Origin: Swaminathania salitolerans | GTDB taxonomy: Bacteria > Pseudomonadota > Alphaproteobacteria > Acetobacterales > Acetobacteraceae | Length of the DNA: 64,000 bases | NCBI RefSeq assembly: GCF_007988945.1 | Contig: NZ_BJVC01000001.1 | Location: forward strand, 620,001 to 684,000 | Direction: 5' to 3' | In this document: positions 22,093 through 24,410 of the stretch, piece by piece | Layout of the letters: each line of letters starts with the position of its first letter | How positions within the stretch are numbered: position 1 is the first letter of the stretch | Made by a program: the position numbers and the translations under genes | Notes under the pieces: generated by a model | Database searches by the model: none | What the model was told of the DNA's origin: nothing | Seen by the model: only the letters and a program-made list of their open reading frames with translations

Positions 22093-22880
22093 AGGGCCGC
22101 GTCCTTATCGTCGCCGGGAGCGATTCCGGGGGAGGGGCGGGCATCCAGGCCGATATCAAGACCGTGTCGGCTTTCGGTGGCTTCGCCATGACGGCGATCA
22201 CGGCGGTGACCGCGCAGAACACGCATGGCGTGCAGGGCATAACAGCCATGTCGCCCGACTTCGTTGCGTTGCAGATGCGCATGGTTCTGGACGATCTGGG
22301 GGCCGATATCGTCAAGCTGGGTATGCTCGGTAATGAGAGCATCGCCGAGGCGGTCGCCGATACCCTGGCGTGCTATCCCGATCTGCGCTGTATCGTCGAT
22401 CCGGTCATGATCGCGACCAGCGGGGATTCCCTGATGGGAGACTCGCCCTGTCGGGCTTATGGCAGACTGATGAAGCGGGCTTTCGTCCTGACGCCCAATC
22501 TGCCCGAACTCGCCGAGTTGAGCGGCGAAAACCCCGGCACTGTCGAGGGGGTCTTCCGTGCGGCCAGAAAGATCTGTCTCGAGCACGGGCCGCGTTACGT
22601 TCTGGCGAAAGGGGGGCATCTCGAAGGATCGGTCGTGTCCGATCTCCTCGTCTCATCGGAAAGCAGGAAGATCTTTTCGGCGGACAGGATAGAGAGCCGG
22701 CATACTCACGGTACGGGGTGCACTCTGGCGAGCGCTCTTGCGACATGCCTCGCCCAGGGCGAGACGCTCGATCAGGCGGTCATTCGCGCGCGCCGGTATG
22801 TGCGTCGTGCCATCCTCGAGGCACCGCCCTTCGGTAAAGGGAGCGCCTGTCCGATGAATCACGCAGTCAGCTCAGAATGA
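22089..22880 (+). CDS. thiD: Hydroxymethylpyrimidine / phosphomethylpyrimidine kinase ThiD
   Basis: ThiD phosphorylates hydroxymethylpyrimidine twice for thiamine synthesis. The 263-residue product is a ribokinase-fold enzyme with the N-terminal [20 protein letters not shown]. The SPDFVALQM region is near 57, [13 protein letters not shown] near 102, and the anion hole [12 protein letters not shown] near 218. It overlaps the end of glmM (ATGA), implying coupled translation, although the pathways are unrelated. Its end overlaps the end of the convergent CtrA-like gene by 9 bp. Confidence 0.93.
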
Positions 22881-23618
22881 TGCCTGAAGCGAGCTTTCGT
22901 CTTTCGCTTCGGTTCTGAGCGCTGTCGCCGGCGTCGTCGCGGGTTTCGCTTCGTCCCTCAGCACATAACCACGGCCCCAGACGGTGCCGATCAGCTGTCC
23001 GGCTCCGAATTGCTGGAGCTTCCGGCGGAGCTTGCAGATGAAGACGTCGATGATCTTCATCTCGGGTTCGTCGATGCCACCATAGAGATGGTTGAGAAAG
23101 GCATCCTTGGTGAGGACGGTTCCGCGACGCAGCACGAGCAGCTCGAGGATCGCATATTCCTTGCCCGTGAGCTGCACCGGATTTCCGTTGACGGTGGCGC
23201 TCTTGGCGTTGAGATCGATCGAGAGCGGGCCGACCGTCATGATGGTGGTGCTGAAACCCCGCGACCGACGCAGAACGGCGTGCAGGCGCGCGAGAAGTTC
23301 CTCGGAGTCGAAAGGCTTGGTTATGTAATCGTCGGCGCCCGCATGGAACGCCTTGATCTTCGCCTGTGCCCGGCTCAGGCCGCTCAGCACGATGATCGGC
23401 GTTTCGATCTGCGTGTTGCGGACGCGCCGGATCACCTCGAAACCTTCGAGATCCTCCAGCGTCAGCTCGGTCAGGGCCAGATCGTAATCGTAATGGCGCA
23501 GCATATCGATCGCTTCGTGCCCGGTCTGGGCGTGATCGATAGTAATACCGCCCTGCTTCAGCGTTTTGATCAGGGTATGAGCCGTGGCTTGATCGCTTTC
23601 CACAAGAAGGAGGCGCAT
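22872..23618 (-). CDS. CtrA-family response regulator with glutamate at the phosphorylation position
   Basis: The 248-residue product matches CtrA, the alphaproteobacterial cell-cycle master regulator, along its whole length. The receiver domain (1-115) starts MRLLLVESDQATA and contains HYDYDLALTELTLEDLEGFEV and ADDYITKPF. The OmpR-type winged helix has LTGKEYAILELL, LNHLYGGIDEPEMKIIDVF and GTVWGRGYVLRDE, almost identical to CtrA. Position 51, the phospho-accepting Asp in CtrA, is Glu here (codon GAG, plus coordinates 23466-23468), and the acidic pocket reads ESD rather than EDD. The lysine and Thr/Ser switch residues remain. The ATG at 23616-23618 is chosen by family alignment; an upstream in-frame extension of 19 residues is possible. 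It may be a constitutively active-like paralog or the organism's only CtrA; sequence alone does not say. Confidence 0.9.
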   Translation of the reverse strand: MRLLLVESDQATAHTLIKTLKQGGITIDHAQTGHEAIDMLRHYDYDLALTELTLEDLEGFEVIRRVRNTQIETPIIVLSGLSRAQAKIKAFHAGADDYITKPFDSEELLARLHAVLRRSRGFSTTIMTVGPLSIDLNAKSATVNGNPVQLTGKEYAILELLVLRRGTVLTKDAFLNHLYGGIDEPEMKIIDVFICKLRRKLQQFGAGQLIGTVWGRGYVLRDEAKPATTPATALRTEAKDESSLQASF

Positions 23619-23750
23619 ATCGTCAATCTCCAGGGTTGTTGTGATCGTGTTACTACCTGAGGTTGCTGTCGGCAAGGAAAATACTTTCTTACCTCAAAAA
23701 CTTTTCTGGTGAGGAGTAACGTGTTTTTAACGAAGTGGGTCTAAAATTTC

Positions 23751-23780
23751 ATTGTATTTACAGTTTGTTCTCATAGTGAA
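23751..23780 (-). promoter_or_regulatory. Candidate promoter of the CtrA-like gene
   Basis: On the minus strand, TTCACT (23775-23780) as -35 and TACAAT (23751-23756) as -10 are separated by 18 bases. The transcript would start about 125 bases before the ATG, leaving a long leader. Confidence 0.45.
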
Positions 23781-23782
23781 CG

Positions 23783-23798
23783 TTAAGAATAGTTGAAC
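23783..23798 (+). promoter_or_regulatory. Near-consensus CtrA box
   Basis: TTAA-N7-TGAAC differs by one base from the known CtrA site TTAA-N7-TTAAC. It sits 2 bases upstream of the candidate -35 of the CtrA-like gene, where an activator or autoregulator would bind. Confidence 0.45.
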
Positions 23799-23875
23799 GA
23801 CATCGTCTGATATGGGGATCCTTACGAACAAATTTCCCTATGCATTATTCACGTTCGTTAACGTAAAAGGTTCCT

Positions 23876-23909
23876 GAGAATCCGCAATTTGAATCCGGAT
23901 TCTCTTTTT
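23876..23909 (+). terminator. Inverted repeat with T-run, containing GANTC sites
   Basis: GAGAATCCG (23876-23884) and CGGATTCTC (23896-23904) form a 9-bp stem with an 11-base loop, followed by TTTTT. Each arm carries a GANTC site and the loop leads into a third. It looks like a plus-strand intrinsic terminator, though no plus-strand gene precedes it; an operator or methylation switch is the alternative. Confidence 0.4.
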
Positions 23910-24065
23910 CCACCCGTTTAGGTTGTATGGTGTGGCCTTTACCTTCTTTCATGATTCTATTGGGTCGTTTGCAAGCATAGATAACGAAATTACGATTCCG
24001 GAACGAAACCGGAGTGATTACTTCCCGACCTTCCTCTTCAGGACCTTTATCCGTGAGCGAGATTC

Positions 24066-24410
24066 GTGCAGATCAAGAGAAATAGTAGGCAGCAGCGTTG
24101 GCGCGAGATGCTCGAATGTGCCTCAGCCCTGACCGCAATCCTGCGTCGCGAGACCAGAGCGCGTCACGTGAGGCATGAAGCAGAGGCCGCGATGATCGCG
24201 GCGGAGCGGGCCGTGCTCGAATCGAATGATGAAGACAGCGCTGTGGAGGGCTTCGTCAGCTGGCTGCCCGAGGCGCGGGACACGATCGAACGTGCGCGTG
24301 CGGCTGAACGCGAGGTCGGGATCGATGTCGCAGTCGCCTATCAGGCCTTCGTGATGGCGCGGAATGCCTCCGAGCATTGCCCCGTGCCGGATGGCGATCT
24401 GCGTCCCTGA
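24066..24410 (+). CDS. Small helical protein of unknown function
   Basis: A 114-residue frame starts at GTG (24066), with an alternative ATG at 24108. Codon use is like the neighbouring genes. The protein is basic at the start (MQIKRNSRQQRWREMLECA), then rich in Ala, Glu and Arg, with a charged heptad-like pattern (LRRETRARHVRHEAEAAMIA) suggesting coiled coil. It has no signal peptide or membrane segment. Position next to a CtrA-like gene and helical character make a FliJ/YscO-like flagellar or secretion chaperone a possible but weak guess. A hairpin with 9-bp arms follows at 24512. Confidence 0.55.
   Translation: MQIKRNSRQQRWREMLECASALTAILRRETRARHVRHEAEAAMIAAERAVLESNDEDSAVEGFVSWLPEARDTIERARAAEREVGIDVAVAYQAFVMARNASEHCPVPDGDLRP

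Follow-up and report, generated by a model that had tools for sequence, protein, structure and literature searches.

Glutamate at the phosphate site of CtrA in Swaminathania salitolerans and other acetic-acid bacteria without ChpT

The only CtrA encoded by the genome of Swaminathania salitolerans carries a natural glutamate at position 51, the site of the phosphorylatable aspartate, and it is probable that this true CtrA has been converted to a phosphorylation-independent regulator, in which an active-like form would be maintained by selection and control would have shifted to the amount of the protein. In textbooks, CtrA and its phosphorelay stand as the master switch of the alphaproteobacterial cell cycle. 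The gene lies in a window of 64,000 nucleotides, which is the whole stretch of DNA analysed here, and coordinates are given as positions in this window unless a locus or contig is named.

The ctrA gene occupies positions 22872–23618 of the minus strand, with its ATG at 23618, and encodes a product of 248 amino acid residues containing a receiver domain (PF00072, 85.3 bits) and a Trans_reg_C domain (PF00486). The best full-length match of this product is CtrA, covering the receiver as well as Trans_reg_C, and CtrA is also the best NCBIfam model with 321.5 bits, below its curated cut-off of 350, while the next family reaches 172.9 bits. The product clusters with the CtrA proteins of its relatives in the tree, and its DNA-binding domain is conserved in the alignment, as expected of a CtrA orthologue. 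The genome of S. salitolerans (G000; 2.92 Mb, 99.99% complete) encodes no second CtrA, as the next best match to the window protein is only 36% identical, and the window protein is thus the sole CtrA of this genome. The paralog tuned as a competitor for CtrA sites, which the preliminary description had proposed as an alternative, is rejected on the same ground.

Codon 51 (GAG; 23466–23468, minus strand, read from 23468 to 23466) is translated as glutamate, at the place where the ChpT-bearing relatives have aspartate. The product is therefore an aspartate-less receiver, recognised as PF00072 by its sequence and with the phosphorylatable aspartate replaced, and it does not have the aspartate required at the phosphate site by a CckA-ChpT-CtrA phosphorelay. 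Codons 7–9 read GAA AGC GAT (ESD), where codon 8 (AGC; 23595–23597, minus strand) places serine at the site of the second metal-binding acidic residue of receivers (PMC4395418). The switch lysine, encoded by codon 101 (23316–23318, minus strand), and Ser79 are both kept. On all these residues the preliminary description, which had noted Glu51, the ESD pocket and the remaining lysine and serine or threonine, proved to be right.

The spread of Glu51 was followed in two sets, namely a scan of named genomes, in which the best 80 of 468 relatives were kept and which is biased towards the window protein, and a genus sample with one genome per genus (60 family genomes, G000 plus G001–G059). The closest named relatives among the best 80 of 468 are Asaia species, which are 82–91% identical in the best segment. 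Glu51 is present in 41 of these best 80 of 468 loci, the remaining 39 having Asp51, and is distributed over Gluconobacter (20), Acetobacter (8), Asaia (5) and Neokomagataea (3), with one locus each in Brytella, Acidomonas, Tanticharoenia, strain ESL0709 and the MAG L172. When only records titled with an acetic-acid-bacterial genus are considered (again among the best 80 of 468), 39 of 40 ctrA loci have Glu51, and the sole exception with Asp51 is a MAG labelled Asaia bogorensis (L176), which is probably mislabelled, as its CtrA is 57% identical and has Asp51, and its genome contains ChpT. Nine of the 60 sampled genera have Glu51 (G000, G008, G021, G024, G036, G039, G041, G047 and G053), the CtrA of G039 being very divergent. 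Glu51 is not confined to one genome and does not stem from chance or a sequencing error, since it recurs in 40 other genes, of which 39 belong to acetic-acid-bacterial genera and one to strain ESL0709. In G015, a second CtrA-like protein with Gly51 (L251) occurs alongside an Asp51 CtrA in the same genome.

ChpT was searched for with Pfam PF10090 and with a ChpT alignment built in this analysis. PF10090 alone was rejected as too weak a test, because the ChpT of G026 was found by the alignment at 1.7e-41 and missed by Pfam, which matched only a fragment elsewhere, in a frame of 625 amino acids; the alignment was thus used for 51 of the 60 genera, and PF10090 alone for the other nine, all of which were positive. 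Neither PF10090 nor the ChpT alignment gave any match in G000, the genome in which chpT had been named as a gene to look for, and ChpT is absent from 22 of the 60 sampled genera, G000 and all nine Glu51 genera among them. In these 22 genera, any match to the ChpT alignment scores no higher than 43 bits and comes from a frame at least 416 amino acids long, and the ChpT proteins that were found score at least 99 bits. Among the genomes reached via named loci, ChpT is absent from all 21 Glu51 genomes that belong to acetic-acid bacteria or strain ESL0709, and is present in eight of ten Asp51 control genomes. Three of the 21 coincide with G036, G047 and G053 in the genus sample and do not count as independent cases. 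The MAG L172, which has both Glu51 and ChpT (165.8 bits), is a clear exception.

The NCBIfam CckA model reached its cut-off in none of 100 genomes, and a family CckA alignment was therefore built. It scores at least 417 bits in 31 of the 38 ChpT-bearing genera and in none of the 22 ChpT-less ones (highest 361). The test is not sharp, as the other seven ChpT-bearing genera do not reach this score and overlap with the lower range. The best CckA match in G000 (E 1e-92) is at the level of a general hybrid kinase, a match to be read with these seven ChpT-bearing genera below 417 bits in mind, and a clear CckA was found in none of the 22 ChpT-less genera, G000 included. The reading of a CtrA that works without the CckA-ChpT relay, as first suggested from the window, is supported by the missing ChpT, the lack of a clear CckA and the selection for Glu51 described below.

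It is quite improbable that small-molecule phosphodonors, or a kinase that escaped recognition, still phosphorylate CtrA at Glu51 or at some other position. The metal-binding acid at position 8 is serine in the window CtrA, the ChpT alignment finds no counterpart in G000, and Asp56, which was considered as a new phosphate acceptor, was rejected in this role because it is invariant in an alignment of 12 sequences that includes Asp51 members. Against this evidence stand the hybrid kinases with receiver domains which remain in G000, and the suggestion that another phosphotransferase may replace ChpT where CtrA and CckA are present (Brilli et al. 2010, PMC2877005). That some members of this group have lost chpT is already known (PMC2877005, PMC8116508), and in cluster D of the Rhodospirillales cckA was reported as present and chpT as not found (Brilli et al. 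2010, PMC2877005), unlike the absence of a clear CckA here; the two results conflict if cluster D covers the acetic-acid bacteria.

The receiver pocket was compared with the presence of ChpT in 54 genera, after six rows had been dropped: G004 and G011 gave nothing beyond weak best matches, the CtrA of G033 was not read, orthology was uncertain for G022, G028 has no CtrA, and the receiver could not be aligned in G031. With an intact pocket defined as E/D7, D8, D51 and K101, the pocket is intact in 35 of 35 genera with ChpT and in four of 19 without it (Fisher p 4.5e-10), an association that amounts to about two ChpT losses and that showed no significance in a phylogenetic independent-pairs test, where one or two pairs give no power. 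Addition of ten named rows changes these counts to 35 of 37 and four of 27, the ChpT-bearing exceptions being L172 (Glu51) and L176 (Asn8). The four ChpT-less genera with Asp51 and an intact pocket are G012, G029, G038 (87% complete) and G040 (90% complete), and other ChpT-less genera keep Asp51 with other pocket changes. Decay among ChpT-less relatives takes several forms, as L241 (G001) has Ala51, no receiver could be aligned in L244 (G031), L012 (G045) combines Asp51 with Asn8 and Arg101, and Arg101 is found in G036, G041, G045, G052 and G059.

The CtrA tree was computed with the pocket columns removed, and 16 of its 17 Glu51 rows belong to a supported clade (99/95) of 23 rows, to which L172 does not belong. 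This clade also holds rows with Asp51 and other changes (G045, G055 and G059), Ala51 (G001), Asp51 with a nearly normal pocket (G012 and G029), and G031. Glu51 requires seven changes on this tree, at least four of which are forced by well-supported branches, the resolution within the 23-row clade being poor, and a single origin of Glu51 is thus not established. The MAG L172, outside the acetic-acid-bacterial clade, represents an independent occurrence of Glu51 in an intact pocket, with the relay partner ChpT still there.

Selection at codon 51 was analysed in 41 Glu51 genes (40 named genes and that of the window, L172 being left out). These genes were chosen for having Glu51, and the only acetic-acid-bacterial-named locus among the best 80 of 468 omitted for its Asp is that of the mislabelled-looking L176. 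Codon 51 is GAA in 33 genes, GAG in eight and GAT or GAC in none, and the restoration of Asp from the Glu codon would take one third-base transversion. On the 41-gene tree, this codon underwent seven A/G changes and no purine/pyrimidine change, while purine/pyrimidine changes occurred in 28 of 28 conserved fourfold columns (mean 6.8, range 1–14). Asp51 does occur within the relay-less clade (G045 and G059). In these 41 genes, Glu51 is held by selection and not by drift.

The remainder of the protein is unevenly conserved. Pocket positions 7, 8, 51, 79 and 101 are identical in the 35 ChpT-bearing rows and have a mean identity of 0.65 in eight Glu51 rows, and the identity of residues 9–22, which include helix 1, the partner-docking face of receivers, falls from 0.52 in ChpT-bearing genera to 0.30 in Glu51 genera. 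The DNA-binding core has a mean pairwise identity of 0.86 among the eight Glu51 genera versus 0.85 among the 35 ChpT-bearing ones, and the corresponding values for alpha4-beta5-alpha5 are 0.71 and 0.76. These two regions, together with the selection for Glu at codon 51 in the 41 genes, argue against relaxed constraint only, in which the receiver would be decaying towards loss and Glu51 would be a passing state; this explanation is disfavoured and very unlikely, although the varied decay in genera without ChpT (Ala51, Arg101 and the receiver that could not be aligned) and the several Glu51 changes needed on the CtrA tree speak for it. Simple loss of phosphorylation control in this lineage, as offered in the preliminary description, is an understatement, as the state is common to many genera and selected.

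A role of Glu51 in the folding or dimer formation of a pseudo-receiver, with activity arising from other changes in the domain and not from imitation of phosphate, is rather unlikely. Pocket residues 7, 8 and 101 do vary among the 41 Glu51 genes (position 7 is Glu in 21 and Asp in 20), the equivalent glutamate of ChxR can be replaced and DNA binding is not abolished (PMC4395418), and the residue at the phosphate site matters for dimer formation in some atypical regulators (PMC12632262). However, Ser79 and Lys101, the partners that a phosphate mimic would use, are kept in the window CtrA, position 101 is occupied by Lys in 37 of the 41 genes and by Arg in the other four, and codon 51 never becomes an Asp codon on the 41-gene tree, though the relay-less G045 and G059 have Asp.

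The conversion to a phosphorylation-independent regulator would be accompanied by changes outside the receiver. The window protein ends in ASF (22875–22883, minus strand), without the Ala-Ala end typical of most Asp51 CtrAs. Among the best 80 of 468 relatives, the Ala-Ala end is found in 31 of 39 Asp51 proteins versus ten of 41 Glu51 proteins, the latter ten coming from eight Acetobacter, Tanticharoenia and L172, and in the genus sample it is found in 25 of 35 genera with ChpT and eight of 19 without. In Caulobacter, the ctrA allele used as the stabilised form differs by replacement of the three terminal residues (PMC12186491), and disruption of clpP in the acetic-acid bacterium Komagataeibacter xylinus leads to longer cells (PMC12733265), in a paper whose available text cites CtrA only from Caulobacter.

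Upstream of ctrA, a site of the form TTAA-N7-TTAC is located at 23716–23731, 113 to 98 bases before the start codon, and is found at the same position in all five named Asaia (L100–L104). It resembles the consensus of the CtrA box, and a second such site with one mismatch (23782–23797) is not found at the same place in other Asaia. In a scan for TTAA-N7-TTAAC with at most one mismatch over 400 bp upstream of ctrA, from which L159 was dropped for having too little upstream sequence, a box-like site is present in 28 of 41 Glu51 regions versus one of 38 Asp51 regions (best 80 of 468 relatives). Twenty dinucleotide shuffles of the Glu51 regions, which allow for their A+T richness (GC 0.48, versus 0.60 for Asp51), gave a mean of 4.0 and a maximum of ten, and other spacers gave no more than ten. 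Within the scanned 400 bp, no site was found in the eight Acetobacter, Acidomonas and Tanticharoenia, nor in one Gluconobacter, one Neokomagataea and L172. In the Glu51 set (best 80 of 468), the site accompanies 28 of the 31 genes without Ala-Ala and none of the ten with it, a split which is mostly a contrast of two genus groups and not a series of many independent events.

Conserved gene order bears on the gene served by the site at −113. Among the best 80 of 468, all 41 named Glu51 loci contain a fliJ match, and in 35 of them fliI adjoins ctrA divergently. In the window (23619–24410), all five named Asaia and ESL0709, ctrA lacks an adjoining fliI, and what remains is a short fliJ-like ORF, which in the window is located at 24066–24410 of the plus strand and encodes 114 amino acids that match no Pfam or NCBIfam model; such an ORF is all that persists in Asaia of the fliI-fliJ linkage of ctrA. 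The site at −113 may more probably serve ctrA itself, because it is retained in Asaia without an adjoining fliI. In the relay-bearing G046, the other side of ctrA is occupied by cheR, cheA and then chpT.

Across the genome G000, the exact CtrA box occurs seven times versus four in the control, which is not clear enrichment, and no pattern was seen among the flanking ORFs. One site at L252:1501-1515 (G000:C1:25377-25391), which has the same 7-base spacer as the site preceding ctrA (TTAAAAACACGTTAA), lies upstream of a gene that resembles an RND transporter by eye. Six GANTC sites are also present upstream of ctrA (23878–24065), and were rejected as a conserved feature, as L100 and L104 of Asaia have none within 400 bp. 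GANTC is strongly depleted across the whole window (169 sites versus 402 expected from shuffles), and such depletion is expected where CcrM-type methylation acts.

The closest known counterpart is the laboratory form of Caulobacter CtrA, of the same family and with the same substitution, for which strains with ctrA.D51E replacing ctrA have been made and studied (PMC12186491). The glutamate described here, in contrast, is natural, belongs to the only ctrA, is common to many genera and occurs without ChpT or a clear CckA, and the S. salitolerans protein moreover carries Ser8 and lacks the Ala-Ala end. ChxR of Chlamydia, an OmpR/PhoB regulator, has a natural glutamate at the phosphate site and does not need phosphorylation (PMC3960148, PMC4395418), but it is not a CtrA; the present case differs in that a known phosphorelay target can be followed through its conversion from genus to genus and that its glutamate is under measurable selection. 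Aspartate-less receivers with glutamate are known as well, glutamate being the commonest replacement (26%; PMC4395418, see also PMC12632262) and the second acidic residue being acidic in only 29% (PMC4395418); CtrA is not named in the main text of either of these two papers. A degenerate CtrA network with missing chpT has already been reported for cluster D of Brilli et al. (PMC2877005) and in a 2021 paper on chromosomal location in the Rhodospirillales. In their available portions, PMC2877005 and PMC8116508 do not tie the loss of chpT to the phosphate site of CtrA, and D51 does not occur in PMC8116508. No report of natural Glu51 in CtrA was found at the level of titles and beginnings of abstracts, in a literature where subscription journals are thinly covered.

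In the explanation that we favour, the ChpT relay step would have been lost in an acetic-acid-bacterial lineage, and since CtrA would be off without phosphate, the change of Asp51 to Glu may have kept it in a working, active-like state. Glutamate, with its longer acid side chain, could imitate the phosphate and still use Ser79 and Lys101, even though an Asp-to-Glu change alone often fails to activate a receiver (PMC4395418). With phosphotransfer now dispensable, the metal-binding pocket would then have decayed. In several genera, including Asaia, the Ala-Ala end would have been lost too and the CtrA-box-like site would have appeared upstream of ctrA, and CtrA output would therefore most likely depend on how much of the protein is made from its own promoter, phosphorylation having ceased to set it. 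From the sequences we infer the constitutive activity, the autoregulation together with its sign, and the order of these events.

As the substitution used in the laboratory as an 'always phosphorylated' mutation is natural here and the switching relay was not found, these results suggest that S. salitolerans and many of its relatives run CtrA in another way. A natural change of the D51E type, in culturable and industrially used bacteria without ChpT and with the glutamate selected, allows a direct study of how a master regulator can operate when its switch is gone, and of the meaning of 'phosphomimetic' over evolutionary time.
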